Shown here piece by piece: positions 2,087 to 12,874 of a DNA stretch of 44,028 bases; the stretch's first letter is position 1; every line of letters starts with the position of its first letter. The DNA lies in IMG/VR virus record IMGVR_UViG_3300027854_000006, positions 1 to 44,028 of that record. One strand, 5' to 3'. The DNA is from a virus. Below the pieces are notes generated by a model. That model did not search any database, had not been told where the DNA came from, and was given only the letters and a program-made list of their open reading frames with translations. The translations under genes and the position numbers were made by a program.

Positions 2087-2446
2087 ATGAAAGACGCGAA
2101 AGGACACGGCAGCGACGCGCACTCCGCAGGCGTTGAACAAGTTGGTCAGCCAAAGACCTACCAATGGACTAAGGATGCGAACGGGGTGCATCATCTTGTT
2201 ATGGGCAACGAGTCGCCTATCGCCTCAGTTTTCAAAGCGGGGAGCGAAAATCCGCCGCTGTCGAGCGGGCCAACACCAAAGGGCTATTATTACGGGCAGC
2301 TTCACAAGGACTTCAATACTGGCGGCTCGCGTGCCGGGAATTGGGGTCTGCTCGGTAGCGTACAGGCGGCAAAACGATGGGTTGAGACGAAAGCTGCGAA
2401 CAGTTGGGACGCGCCTAACATTAGCAATCCTGCGCACAAGCGGTAG
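2087..2446 (+). CDS. KDAKGHGSD-tagged protein, cassette 2 cargo (119 aa)
   Basis: The protein opens with MKDAKGHGSD, followed by AHSAGVEQVGQPK, then a C-terminal domain with GYYYGQLHKDFN and NSWDAPNISNP. It is a clear paralogue of the protein at 20412-20780: from QPKTY onward I count roughly 72 of 99 identical residues. AGGTGGA at 2078-2084 is a good ribosome-binding site. The same fold therefore exists once as a mobile-cassette passenger and once inside the main tag cluster 18 kb away. The biochemical role is unknown; see the tag-family finding. Confidence 0.85.
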   Translation: MKDAKGHGSDAHSAGVEQVGQPKTYQWTKDANGVHHLVMGNESPIASVFKAGSENPPLSSGPTPKGYYYGQLHKDFNTGGSRAGNWGLLGSVQAAKRWVETKAANSWDAPNISNPAHKR

Positions 2447-2451
2447 GGATT

Positions 2452-2475
2452 GCATGTTGAAACCGGATAAGCATG
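2452..2475 (-). repeat. Right terminal inverted repeat of cassette 2
   Basis: An inverted copy of 2045-2068 (22 of 24). It contains the ATG at 2454 used to open the fused rtcB frame. Confidence 0.88.
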
Positions 2476-4802
2476 AAATGAGAGCCGATCCGTATCAGGC
2501 GCGTGCGCGCGAACTTTGCAAAGCAGACGGCAAGGACCCGGACAGCCGAGTCTATTCGTTTGTAGGCATCAATGTCGATCACGGGACTCACGTAGATCAA
2601 AAACGGGGGCGTCCGGCGTGGTGTGACTACCGCGATGCGGCGCGCGCCGAACACAACAAGCGTGAGACCGACGCACTCGCCGAGTCTATCGCGACCTTCC
2701 GGCCGCAGGAACTTAAATACCAGGATCGACCACTCATGGTCATGGGTCAGGATCACGATCAATCGACGCGCGATCAGATGCGCAATTGCATGAAGGTCGG
2801 CAATGTGGTCGGCGGCGCACTTTGCGCAGACGGGCACTTGGGTTATGCGCAGTCAGTCGGCGGCATCATCGCCTATGAGGATCAGATCAGCGTGTCCGGC
2901 GTCGGCTTCGACATCGCCTGTTTAGACGAGGAGACCGAGTTTCTTCATCGTGATGGGTGGACTCGAATGGACCAGTGGAGCGGTCAATATGTTGCTCAGT
3001 ATGACCCATACAGCGGATGTGCGTCTTTCGTGCAACCGGATGAATATATTGTGCGACCCGCCGAGCGTTTCCTGCATTTCAAGACGAAGTTTGGCATAGA
3101 TCAGATGCTTACGCCGGATCATAGAATGCTAGTTTATGCTCCCGGACCTAAGCGTGAGTTTGCTCAAGGTCGAGTTGTCATAGCGCAGGATTTTGCGGAT
3201 CATCATAATAGTCTTGTTCTCGGCGTTGATGACCGGATCAATACCATATTTGAAATACATCACCATGGCGAGGTTGCTTACACGGACGAGGAACTTGCGG
3301 TTATCGTAATGACCTGCGCGGACGCTTATCTTGAGCATCGTGAGGGTCGAGGTATCGGAACCGCGATACTATCTCTTAAGAAAGATCGCAAGATACGACG
3401 TGCTCGACAGTTGTTGAACCTCGCGGGGGTGCCGTTCAGCGAGAGTGGCCCTAATAAGTTAGGCTACACGACATTTCGGTATATGGCATTTCCGGTCGGC
3501 AAGAAGTTGTGGGAGTTGTGGGGAGCCAGTCCTCGTCAGTTGCGGGTCATAGCTGACGAGGTTTTGTTGTGGGACGGTAATCTCGATGCGCAATGCTTCT
3601 ACACCCGCGTTAAAGGGAGTGCGGATTTTATTCACTACGCCTTTGCTGCGACCGGGCGGCGATCTGTCATGCGTCAGGATGGTGTCGATTATCGTGTCTT
3701 TGCTCAACCGAATACCAAGGTCGGGCTTAAAGCTACGCCGCACAAAGCGATTAAAGAAGTCGCGGCGACGCCCGGACAAAAAGCATTTTGCTTTCGGGTT
3801 CCAACAGGGTTCTTTGTAATCCGGCGAGGCGGTCAGATCGCGGTCACCGGCAACTGCGGTAACATGGCAGTGCGGCTTGCTATGCCGTACTCAGTTGTCA
3901 AGGATCGGGTGTCCGATCTTACTCGGGAAATTGCAAACACGATTTCATTCGGTGTCGGTCGCACCAATGACGAGCGCGTAGAGCATGAACTGTTTGACGA
4001 CGCCGAGGCTTGGTATAAAGCCGACCGTGAGGACTTCAAAGGGAAGGCTCATGCGCAGCTTGGGACGGTCGGCGGCGGCAATCACTATGTTGACTTGTTC
4101 GAGGACGAGGCTGGTCTCGTGTGGATCGGTGTTCACTTCGGTTCGCGCGGTCTCGGGCATTCGTCCGCGAAGAAGTACATCGAAGCAGCCGGCGGCAAGG
4201 ACGGCATCCACGTTCCGCCGACTGTGCTCGACCTAAACAGCGAGCTAGGTCAACGATACCTAGCAGCCATGAGCCTTGCTGGCCGCTACGCTTATGCCGG
4301 TCGCGAATGGGTCGTCGAGCGCGTGCGCAAGATACTCGGCGGTCCCGCTGTGGTCGATACAGTGCACAACCATCACAACTATGCTTGGCTTGAGGAACAC
4401 AACGGTCGCGCACTGTGGGTCGTGCGCAAGGGCGCGACGCCCGCGTTCCCTGGACAGCGTGGCTTCGTCGGCGGCTCAATGGGCGACAACGCAGTGATTA
4501 TCGAGGGCGCCGATAGCAACTACTCGCGAGCGATGTACTTCTCGACGATCCACGGCGCCGGTCGGCTGTTTGGCCGAAAGGAAGCGAAGCGCCGCTTCGC
4601 GCGTCCCGAAATGGATGCATGGCTCCGTGACAAGGGCGTGTTTCTCGTCGGCGGCGACCTGGATGAGTCGCCGATGGCATACCGCCGTCTGCCTGATGTG
4701 CTCTCGGAGCACGTCGGTACGATCAGAGTGCTTCACACCTTGCGACCATTCTCGGTCGTGATGGCTGGCGAAGGTGAGTACGATCCATACAAGGAAGGAT
4801 GA
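2454..4802 (+). CDS. rtcB: RtcB-type RNA ligase precursor containing an intein (782 aa)
   Basis: RtcB joins RNA 2',3'-cyclic-phosphate or 3'-phosphate ends to 5'-OH ends using GTP and Mn2+, and in phages could reseal RNAs cut by host anticodon nucleases. Family signatures are in order: VSGVGFDIA|CGNMAVRL (metal-binding Cys, split by the intein), LGTVGGGNHY (~4058), HFGSRGLG, HNHHNY (~4366), RKGATPA (~4426), GSMGDNAVIIEG and the guanylylated-His motif TIHGAGR (~4546). The spliced product would be about 470 aa, the usual length. The native start is ATG 2478; cassette 2 supplies an upstream in-frame ATG at 2454 behind TAGGGA, which I take as the present start. The open frame further upstream lies inside the cassette and is not used. 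Confidence 0.93.
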   Translation: MLKPDKHEMRADPYQARARELCKADGKDPDSRVYSFVGINVDHGTHVDQKRGRPAWCDYRDAARAEHNKRETDALAESIATFRPQELKYQDRPLMVMGQDHDQSTRDQMRNCMKVGNVVGGALCADGHLGYAQSVGGIIAYEDQISVSGVGFDIACLDEETEFLHRDGWTRMDQWSGQYVAQYDPYSGCASFVQPDEYIVRPAERFLHFKTKFGIDQMLTPDHRMLVYAPGPKREFAQGRVVIAQDFADHHNSLVLGVDDRINTIFEIHHHGEVAYTDEELAVIVMTCADAYLEHREGRGIGTAILSLKKDRKIRRARQLLNLAGVPFSESGPNKLGYTTFRYMAFPVGKKLWELWGASPRQLRVIADEVLLWDGNLDAQCFYTRVKGSADFIHYAFAATGRRSVMRQDGVDYRVFAQPNTKVGLKATPHKAIKEVAATPGQKAFCFRVPTGFFVIRRGGQIAVTGNCGNMAVRLAMPYSVVKDRVSDLTREIANTISFGVGRTNDERVEHELFDDAEAWYKADREDFKGKAHAQLGTVGGGNHYVDLFEDEAGLVWIGVHFGSRGLGHSSAKKYIEAAGGKDGIHVPPTVLDLNSELGQRYLAAMSLAGRYAYAGREWVVERVRKILGGPAVVDTVHNHHNYAWLEEHNGRALWVVRKGATPAFPGQRGFVGGSMGDNAVIIEGADSNYSRAMYFSTIHGAGRLFGRKEAKRRFARPEMDAWLRDKGVFLVGGDLDESPMAYRRLPDVLSEHVGTIRVLHTLRPFSVVMAGEGEYDPYKEG
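2919..3854 (+). other. Intein in RtcB (312 aa)
   Basis: The insertion interrupts the RtcB motif GVGFDIA/CGNMAVRL exactly before the metal-binding cysteine. It starts with Cys (CLDEETEF, block A), has a TPDH block B (~3117-3128), and ends VTGN followed by Cys+1, so all splicing nucleophiles are present; the penultimate residue is Gly rather than the common His. The middle contains two LAGLIDADG-like stretches (DEELAVIVMTCADAYL and VIADEVLLWDGNLD) of a compact, possibly degenerate homing endonuclease. Inteins are known in RtcB of other organisms (for example Pyrococcus). Removal would regenerate an uninterrupted RtcB. Confidence 0.9.
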
Positions 4803-5779: not shown

Positions 5780-5823
5780 AACGCTGAGAGCCACTAGATG
5801 TTGTGTCGATTATGGAGCCGAAA

Positions 5824-6612
5824 ATGACCGCGCGTAAAATAGCCATTGAAAACGAAATCTTACGCGGCATCGTAGGATCGACTTCTCATGGCACGGCCAT
5901 TGACGGACAGGATGACCGGGATGAAATGGGCGTCTTTATCGAACCGCCGGAATATGTCTGCGGTCTGACGCCGCTCGATCATTACATCTATCGGGATAAG
6001 CCAGAGGGCGTTCGTAGTGCGGCGGGAGACCTTGACCTTACGATGTATAGCCTTCGTAAGTTTTGCCGCTTGGCAGAGCAGGGGAACCCGTCTGTGGTCA
6101 TCCTACTGTGGCTCCCGGAACATATTGTCAGGACCGAACTAGGTCGCGCTCTTCTCAAGATGCGTGAGGCATTTATCAGTCGCGACTCCGGTAATCGCTT
6201 CCTTGGCTATCTCGTCGCCCAAAAGATGAAGATGAAAGGCGAGCGGACGGCCACCACGAAACGACCAGAACTGATCGAGAAATACGGCTACGATACAAAA
6301 TTCGCGATGCACGCTCTCCGGTTGGCGTTTGAAGGCATCGAAATGTTAACGCATCGCCGAGTCACGTTGCCGGTAACCGAGCCAAATCTTTCGATCTTGC
6401 GCGGCGTTCGTACCGGACAGTATGAACTTGGCGATGTATTTGGGATGATCGACCGCGCGGAAGCACAACTTCGCGAGCTATTGAAGGATTGCAACTGGAA
6501 AACTGATCGCGCTCGGATCAACGCTTTCATGGTTAAGGCGCACCAAATCCACTGGCAATCCCGGTTTAGTAGACGTGGGTTTGGCCACCGCAGCCAGGGC
6601 CACAAGATGTAG
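5824..6612 (+). CDS. COG3541-type predicted nucleotidyltransferase, cassette 3 cargo (262 aa)
   Basis: The N-terminus has the DNA polymerase-beta superfamily pattern: a GSTSHG loop (about residues 14-19) followed by an acidic DDRDEMGV strand, as in the YcgL/COG3541 group of stand-alone nucleotidyltransferases. The rest (LTMYSLRKFCRLAEQGNPS, then a helical C-terminus) fits that family. Such enzymes are predicted to add nucleotides to RNA or protein, and members have been linked by genome context to RNA repair. ATG 5824 was chosen because GGAG (5814-5817) lies 6 nt upstream; ATG 5812 and GTG 5803 are in frame too. Substrate unknown. Confidence 0.8.
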   Translation: MTARKIAIENEILRGIVGSTSHGTAIDGQDDRDEMGVFIEPPEYVCGLTPLDHYIYRDKPEGVRSAAGDLDLTMYSLRKFCRLAEQGNPSVVILLWLPEHIVRTELGRALLKMREAFISRDSGNRFLGYLVAQKMKMKGERTATTKRPELIEKYGYDTKFAMHALRLAFEGIEMLTHRRVTLPVTEPNLSILRGVRTGQYELGDVFGMIDRAEAQLRELLKDCNWKTDRARINAFMVKAHQIHWQSRFSRRGFGHRSQGHKM

Positions 6613-11567: not shown

Positions 11568-11661
11568 CCGGTTGCCTAGCGCGGGCACCCCGAGGATACG
11601 CTTCGGCACCGCCTAAAGTACGGATGGGCGCCGGAGCAAACACTTACAAGGGAGCCGCACT

Positions 11662-12069
11662 ATGGACAACGACCTGCTTGAGATACCTCCCTTTTTGGAC
11701 CTTCGTATTCCTGAGAACCTCGCCGCGTGGAAAGAGGGGCGCCGTAACTGGCGCCCCGGCTCTCCCGCTGCGAAGCGCGCGGAGAAGCGCAAACAGAACT
11801 TCGACAGTCAAGGAAACCGACTGCCGGATAACATGGACGAAGCGTCTTGGGCTTTCCTGCATCAGCTTGAAGGCGAGCAAGCGGCGAAAGCCAAGGCAGC
11901 GCAAGCCGAGCGTGACGAGTTAAAGGCAATCGAGCGCAACGCGCGGACGCAAGTCCGCGAGGAAGCTCGGGCGGCGAAGCGCGCCATGCGCGAGGCGGAG
12001 AAACAGCGCAAAGCCGAGGTCAAAGCCGCCAAGACCGAAGCCCGAGCCGCTAAGACTACCAAAAGTTGA
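11662..12069 (+). CDS. Hypothetical protein with long charged helix (135 aa)
   Basis: AGGGAG precedes ATG 11662. The N-terminal half (LLEIPPFLDLRIPENLAAW) is mixed; from about residue 70 to the end it is an almost uninterrupted Ala/Lys/Glu/Arg helix, suggesting a coiled coil or basic tail. No known family. A sigma70-like promoter overlaps its stop codon. Confidence 0.75.
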   Translation: MDNDLLEIPPFLDLRIPENLAAWKEGRRNWRPGSPAAKRAEKRKQNFDSQGNRLPDNMDEASWAFLHQLEGEQAAKAKAAQAERDELKAIERNARTQVREEARAAKRAMREAEKQRKAEVKAAKTEARAAKTTKS

Positions 12070-12094
12070 CAAGAAACCGTACTTCGTTAACTGT
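12066..12094 (+). promoter_or_regulatory. Candidate promoter for the structured RNA
   Basis: TTGACA (12066-12071) is consensus; the best -10 is TAACTG (12088-12093, 16-bp spacing) or AACTGT (17-bp spacing), both weak. Transcription would start near 12100, just ahead of the first RNA helix at 12109. Confidence 0.45.
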
Positions 12095-12108
12095 ACTGCG
12101 AGGTGGGT

Positions 12109-12232
12109 CTTGCGCTCCTCGGGGGCTTTGGCATATGGTCCGCCTGCTAGTTGGAGTGAGCCGCTCGCCGACCCGCAATGTGCACTAGCGGTCGGAGAAG
12201 GCGGGAGCGCAAGGACCGGCCGGTCCAAAGCC
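12109..12232 (+). ncRNA. Predicted pseudoknotted structured RNA
   Basis: Four mutually consistent helices are visible: a perfect 10-bp stem 12109-12118/12204-12213; 12140-12144/12200-12204; a hairpin 12168-12176/12188-12195 with one bulged C; and a perfect 8-bp pairing 12124-12131 (GGCTTTGG)/12225-12232 (CCAAAGCC) that crosses the first and so forms a pseudoknot. A 14-nt palindrome (12213-12226) could compete. The 261-bp stretch 12070-12330 has no convincing gene, and a promoter lies directly upstream. It could be a free RNA or a leader of the genes from 12331. No known RNA family was recognised. Confidence 0.55.
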
Positions 12233-12330
12233 ACGGGGCAACCCTAAGGCCACTAGCACGAACCGGTGTGACGATACACTTTTCGCCCCGCGACCCGGTG
12301 ATGTCGGTCAACCGCGACCTGTGTGAGTAA

Positions 12331-12489
12331 ATGGCAACAGTCAAGAAAGGCATTTTGGTTCGGGCTGGCGAGTGGTGGAAGCATCTTCGCAAGCGTAAAG
12401 CTCATCGGCCGTTCTGGAAACGTCATCGGCTCGCGGAGAAGCGGGAGATTGGCGAGGAATTGAAACAGCGAGCGTATGAGGGCGACTGA
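12331..12489 (+). CDS. Small basic hypothetical protein (52 aa)
   Basis: MATVKKGILVRAGEWWKHLR starts a strongly basic, Trp- and His-containing helical protein with an acidic end. Its TGA overlaps the next ATG. It is the first gene after the structured region. No clear Shine-Dalgarno (GAGTAA immediately upstream). Confidence 0.6.
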   Translation: MATVKKGILVRAGEWWKHLRKRKAHRPFWKRHRLAEKREIGEELKQRAYEGD

Positions 12490-12644
12490 TGAAATCTTTT
12501 GAAATAGTCGAGGAAGCGGTGAACCGCACTCGGCTCGAACTGAAAGAGACTGCTCACGTTGGGGGCGACGGTCCTAACATTCACGATGCTTTCGCGATCT
12601 TCGCCGCCAAGCTCGGCGAAGTTTATCAGGAGCAGAAGAAATGA
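12489..12644 (+). CDS. Small hypothetical protein (51 aa)
   Basis: MKSFEIVEEAVNRTRLELKE is an amphipathic helix followed by HDAFAIFAAKLGEVYQEQKK. Both ends overlap neighbouring genes in the ATGA/TGATG manner, which supports the call. Function unknown. Confidence 0.65.
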   Translation: MKSFEIVEEAVNRTRLELKETAHVGGDGPNIHDAFAIFAAKLGEVYQEQKK

Positions 12645-12874
12645 AGTCTCGCCTGCATCGTGCTCCCCGTGCGGACTCGCGCAAATGCGTTCAGATAGTC
12701 AGCCAGGGCGTCCCCGGTCGCTTCTCAAACGATGACGCGCACCGGCTCGTCACTATAGACCACGACGGGCAGTATTGTCCGAAGTTGGTTTTCAAGAAGT
12801 ACCGCGCCGCGCATCCCGAGCATCCGGCGAATCACCGCATCAACTCGGAGGGGAAGATCGTCGCCGATGTCTAG
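12641..12874 (+). CDS. Hypothetical protein (77 aa)
   Basis: Arg-rich start (MKSRLHRAPRADSRKCVQIV) followed by a probable beta hairpin and a His/Pro-rich region (RAAHPEHPANHRIN). Overlaps neighbours on both sides. No known family. Confidence 0.7.
   Translation: MKSRLHRAPRADSRKCVQIVSQGVPGRFSNDDAHRLVTIDHDGQYCPKLVFKKYRAAHPEHPANHRINSEGKIVADV

Follow-up and report, generated by a model that had tools for sequence, protein, structure and literature searches.

The gene-free stretch between two small genes of an uncultured phage from a poorly known group probably represents a conserved gene for a structured RNA with its own promoter. We analyzed it within a 44,028-base virus record (the window), which carries the terminase, portal, and scaffold genes on the right and numerous small genes in its left part. 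In the explanation that we consider fairly probable, positions 12087–12264 are a small-RNA gene: a promoter at the 5′ end would start transcription at about 12144–12146, and the first about 120 nt of the transcript would fold into a clover-like four-way junction composed of a closing stem (P1) and arms A, B, and C (Table 1). The RNA would be one among several structured RNAs of a cassette in which, or beside which, related phages carry tRNA-like RNAs or tRNA arrays, and it would work independently, in trans, instead of serving as a leader; action in trans appears most likely because the fold is kept while the downstream gene varies between relatives. A preliminary description had proposed a promoter-linked structured RNA at this site, and that part is supported by a homologue at the same genomic position, by compensatory changes, and by a promoter-like module, whereas the complex pseudoknot and the TTGACA promoter it had envisaged are not.

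Table 1. Features in and around the gene-free stretch of the window
Feature	Position	Strand	Description
Upstream gene	11662–12069	+	135 aa, function unassigned; positive coding score
Promoter-like module	12087–12139	+	TTAAC, hairpin with TTG in the loop, then GGCTTTGGCATATGGT; conserved
Helix A of the preliminary description	12109–12213 (12109–12118/12204–12213)	+	5′ strand in the promoter-like module, 3′ strand in arm A
Helix D of the preliminary description	12124–12232 (12124–12131/12225–12232)	+	5′ strand in the promoter-like module, 3′ strand overlaps arms B and C
Predicted structured RNA	12144–12264	+	About 120 nt, four-way junction; homologue L095 1484–1613
P1 closing stem (predicted)	12145–12258 (12145–12151/12252–12258)	+	TGCTAGT/ACTAGCA; of the 7 pairs, 3 have double changes and 1 is broken in G018
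Arm A (predicted)	12163–12208	+	GCTC/GAGC (12163–12166/12205–12208) and CCGA-C-CCGC/GCGGTCGG (12168–12176/12188–12195)
Arm B (predicted)	12213–12226	+	GGACC-GGCC-GGTCC; G018 GGAAC-GCGC-GTTCC, one compensatory pair
Arm C (predicted)	12230–12250	+	GCC-AC-GGG-GCAA-CCC-TAA-GGC
Downstream gene	12331–12489	+	52 aa, MATVKKGILVRAGEWWKHLRK...; positive coding score

The absence of genes that had been described for this stretch was confirmed by codon use, which gave no coding signal in any frame of 12070–12330; an ATG-initiated ORF of 50 aa (12178–12330) had a lower coding score than all flanking genes. Folding energy was average for the whole gene-free stretch compared with shuffled sequence (z 0.32) and unremarkable for 12098–12275 (z 0.44) as well as for the predicted RNA alone (z −1.04). 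In a scan against Rfam 15, no match in the window reached the gathering threshold, and the hits of the E-value scan were sub-threshold and located outside the RNA. One sub-threshold match to the c-di-GMP-I riboswitch (11915–11978; 23.9 bits, gathering 35) fell within the coding sequence of the 11662–12069 gene and is probably due to chance.

A search with the portal protein yielded 32 related loci, whose whole records were then searched with 11600–12700. In these records the gene-free stretch had a single DNA homologue, in G018 (IMGVR_UViG_3300021420_000114), with 72% identity over window positions 12159–12262. The G018 homologue occupies the same position, behind that relative's version of the 11662–12069 gene, which is also present in G004 and G012 (36–43% identity in the three relatives). 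From a separate search, a match in L002 was a charged low-complexity stretch and was left out. The window RNA and the G018 RNA, folded separately by minimum energy, adopted the same architecture of P1 and three arms. The single folds differed in detail: G018 extends its closing stem via GGCTT/AAGGCT, which its minimum-energy fold itself prefers, while AAGGC closes arm C in the window. A conserved pairing, GGCTTT/TAAGGCC (12124–12131/12244–12251), was considered and rejected, since once trimmed at the predicted start the window sequence pairs TAAGGC within arm C, a pairing also kept in G018.

In a plain MAFFT alignment of the two RNAs, 28 of the 29 pairs were kept and one was broken, with six compensatory double changes: P1 had three, and arm A, arm B, and the hairpin of arm C had one apiece. 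In arm A, where a conserved AGAAG comes after the inner helix, an outer G-C pair became A-U and the inner pairs were identical; arm C of G018 (GUC-GC-GAGC-GCAA-GCUC-UAA-GGC) showed one compensatory and one wobble change. Overall, 34% of the columns were changed, and AGAAG, the GCAA loop, and TAAGG were identical in both sequences. When pairing partners were slid by 1–3 columns as a control, 34–43% of the cells were paired and 0–1 double changes were seen. The observed pair values were attained by 14 of 500 letter shuffles, and under a null model of substitution in which 41 columns differed, none of 20,000 replicates had as few broken pairs and 0.09% had at least six compensatory pairs. The six compensatory changes with a single broken pair imply selection on pairing. 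The fold was derived from the same two sequences that were used for pair counting, and the evidence for it is good but not conclusive because it comes from two sequences and the structure was chosen with both in view. With this proviso, the structure backed by the homologue is the predicted four-armed clover fold and not the crossing pseudoknot.

The promoter-like module upstream of the RNA could be aligned between the window and G004, G012, and G018, and also with the end of the L052 rtcB gene; besides the window, it is located at L124 1966–2016, L126 1538–1580, L123 1500–1550, and L052 11345–11400. Each of the five sequences has TTAAC or CTAAC and a hairpin whose loop contains or lies close to a TTG-type element, followed by TGCTATGTT or similar; the third part is TTTGCTATGTT-like, and the module is found in four relatives. 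A strict pattern, GGCTTTG.?C.?TATG[GT]T, had just three non-identical matches across 2.78 Mb of loci, and all three belong to this phage group. Compared with a sigma-70 extended −10 element (TGnTATAAT-like, with or without TTGACA at a distance of 16–18 nt), the relatives have TGCTATGTT or similar and the window has TTTGGCATATGGT. The −35 candidate TTGCGC (12110–12115) and the −10 candidate TATGGT (12134–12139) are both weak matches, separated by 18 nt, and a promoter scan passed no sigma-70-like site. The −10 candidate ends 5 nt before the predicted 5′ end of the RNA, and the module, judged by its shape and position, appears to represent the promoter. The TTGACA box (12066–12071) to which this role had initially been assigned lies about 20 nt upstream of the module, overlaps the TGA stop codon of the 11662–12069 gene, and lacks a good −10 partner.

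We then looked for further members using a covariance model, R1, built from the window RNA and the G018 RNA only; cmsearch with this two-sequence model gave 132.7 bits, a score for the very sequences from which the model was built. R1 detected no additional member among 30 whole records of relatives, 81 loci, and 89 further loci; hits at E values of 0.07–0.8 in one of these searches looked like chance. No homologue beyond G018 was seen in phages, plasmids, and prokaryote genomes, where one set of hits traced to the neighbouring RNA instead. The pattern CCGAYCCGCAN{4,20}AGCGGTCGG gave 16 viral hits, all chance-like except G018, and a longer version gave no hits in 85,000 prokaryote genomes. As no third member was found, the RNA is either rare or fast-changing, and the best reading is that of a new, rare phage small RNA with two known members and no Rfam match.

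The region occupied by the RNA is a variable cassette: the same phage group carries several structured RNAs between small genes, among them tRNA-like RNAs that contain insertions. In G004 and G005, the 12331 and 12641 genes are present with a different RNA-like sequence between genes, with the T-arm GGGTTCGAGTCCC and the end GCGACCA. This strongly folded RNA at the same place (L094 1200–1480 in G004, the same in G005; z −4.67) has a 16-bp stem inside a tRNA-looking RNA, with a 171-nt insert in the anticodon loop, and ends in GGGTTCGAGTCCCCGCCGCGACCA. G012 has merely about 100 nt at this place. In G018, the RNA upstream of the window-RNA homologue contains a T-loop and tRNA halves, and its cap (L095 1245–1406) was called as tRNA-Val(CAC) interrupted at position 32–33 by 69 inserted nucleotides. 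A possible third RNA of the G018 cassette (L095 1628–1712) has a perfect 9-bp closing stem, CCGGCACGT/ACGTGCCGG.

The variability of this cassette bears on whether the RNA is a cis-acting leader, riboswitch-like or controlling translation, of the 12331–12489 gene. The two are on the same strand and the start codon is only 66 nt past the RNA; furthermore, since no terminator was found for the window RNA, the transcript probably runs into this gene. Nevertheless, we regard a leader as quite unlikely because the downstream gene is not constant: the G018 RNA precedes an unrelated gene, and G004 has the same downstream gene behind a different RNA. Relatives of the 12331–12489 gene occur in 11 IMG/VR contigs; in L138, the relative is inside an array of 25 tRNAs (ARAGORN; 21 by Rfam), and in most of the remaining contigs protein-coding sequence lies upstream of the gene. 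There was also no Rfam riboswitch match in the stretch.

The RNA resembles tRNAs (Rfam RF00005) and phage tRNA arrays in its predicted clover-like topology, closed by a stem of 7 bp, and in its location, which relatives use for tRNAs or tRNA-like RNAs. Unlike a tRNA, it lacks a T-loop, a normal-sized anticodon arm, and CCA. ARAGORN found neither a tRNA gene at default settings nor a tmRNA gene with a tag peptide in the window; no Rfam tRNA match was obtained in 11900–12500 even at E values up to 5, and no GGTTCRANYCC T-loop site with at most one mismatch was present in 12070–12330. A hidden intron-bearing tRNA was also considered and rejected, as permissive intron hits were about as frequent in shuffles; readings as an HDV-like RNA, a group I intron, or a riboswitch, weighed by eye, had no Rfam support. 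Like the large phage RNAs GOLLD and ROOL, the window RNA is a structured non-coding phage RNA; those RNAs are several hundred nucleotides in length, and no Rfam family matches the window RNA.

These comparisons raise the question of whether the stretch is what remains of a decayed cassette of tRNAs or tRNA-like RNAs, still inherited although its function was lost. Such an origin would account for the tRNA-like RNAs at the locus in G018 and G004, the tRNA array around the downstream gene in L138, the lack of a detectable tRNA in the window, and the folding of the window RNA, which is just slightly better than that of shuffles. It is improbable in view of the six compensatory changes and single broken pair across 34% changed columns and of the identity of AGAAG, the GCAA loop, and TAAGG in G018.

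The pseudoknot of the preliminary description, in which helices A and D cross, further helices are nested, and the transcript starts from the TTGACA box, was examined as well. The perfect 10-bp and 8-bp repeats are present and do cross, and the two further 6-bp repeats exist as well (CCGCCT/AGGCGG, 12140–12145/12199–12204; GCTAGT/ACTAGC, 12146–12151/12184–12189). When the region was shuffled 3000 times, a crossing 10 + 8 pair arose 7 times; the pair is not significant because 0.65 such crossings are expected per shuffled 44-kb window, against one observed, when the whole window is searched. In G018, the single homologue, helices A and D had no counterparts better than those in shuffles. A wide MAFFT alignment paired 8 of the 10 helix A positions in G018, yet shuffles matched that, and the G018 strand there was part of another RNA's hairpin. 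Both helices compete with arms A–C, which take up their 3′ strands, and both 5′ strands are within the promoter-like module; likewise, P1 competes with the reported GCTAGT hairpin, and the homologue supports the 7-bp pairing of P1. Helices A and D are thus present as repeats but probably unformed in the RNA, and a pseudoknot transcribed from a box that overlaps a stop codon and has no −10 is very unlikely. Least probable of all is a DNA-level element, such as a protein-binding or recombination site made of the inverted repeats in the gene-free stretch, given that compensatory changes in several nested, loop-separated stems and a kept GNRA-type loop fit an RNA better.

The cassette also led to a second RNA family across many phage groups. 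The G018 RNA just upstream of the window-RNA homologue (L095 about 1218–1473) belongs to a wider family with the core ACGAGGCGWC-N-CGCCTACTC, found in the named phages Erwinia phiEa21-4 ('tRNA-OTHER'), SNUABM_4, and Pectobacterium Arno162 and also in Serratia Moabite, Chaseviridae, and Arthrobacter Kumotta. The core occurs in 118 IMG/VR stretches and in 53 prokaryote-genome stretches, some part of the latter by chance; the family loci are L095 1218–1473, L172 1447–1594, L173, L174, L175–L184, and L185–L301. Its architecture consists of P1 (NNNNGAG/CTCNNNN), AG, an 8-bp P2, a cap, GGTAGC-hairpin-GAGCAACTAAC or TTAAGA, and ACGAGGCGWC-N-CGCCTA. Among the 33 members checked, P1 is paired and occurs as 24 different sequences, while P2 varies widely in sequence and has 8 of 8 bp in 31 members and 7 of 8 in two, counts that lean towards pairing because P1 pairing was required in the selection and the P2 partner was the best match. 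The cap has a tRNA T-loop in 17 of the 33, making about half of them tRNA-like, and in Arno162 (L174) extra sequence lies ahead of the T-arm. At the family loci, the only Rfam 15 matches were to tRNA, and no description of the family turned up in the open-access literature, which is not proof of absence.

The window RNA adjoins this family through its homologue in G018, and members are found in the tRNA arrays of named phages. It has neither the core motif nor the P1-AG-P2 arrangement; membership in the ACGAGGCG/CGCCTACTC family, judged by the core motif together with its P4 hairpin, was rejected, as the best regional score was −22.9 bits versus at least 40.5 bits for members, and nhmmer gave no hit in the window region. 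The family is a second phage RNA family absent from Rfam, much wider spread than the window RNA. The work corrects the structure proposed for a gene-free stretch in a poorly known phage group, and through the second family the role of non-tRNA RNAs inside phage tRNA arrays becomes a directly testable question.

With respect to function, the cassette context (G018, G004, and L138) and the presence of RtcB and RlaP genes suggest a link to tRNA biology, and the predicted clover-like shape would fit a tRNA mimic. We tentatively suggest, as a possibility still on the unlikely side, a protein-binding tRNA-shaped RNA belonging to the tRNA cassette, which might act as a decoy against a tRNA-cutting enzyme of the host or as a partner to the phage RNA-repair proteins RtcB and RlaP. 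More speculative and rather unlikely is that the window and G018 RNAs represent an unseen class of clover-shaped phage RNAs, residing in tRNA cassettes beside tRNA-embedding RNAs and serving as tRNA mimics (decoys or substrates) with RtcB and RlaP in phage–host conflict. The RtcB RNA ligase gene (2133–4802) and, near it, the gene for an RlaP-like RNA-repair nucleotidyltransferase (5803–6612; Pfam PF10127, E 5.9e-26) form the RNA-repair pair of the phage. The RtcB gene carries an extra stretch of ~310 codons (about 2921–3853) that is absent in relatives and is probably an intein.
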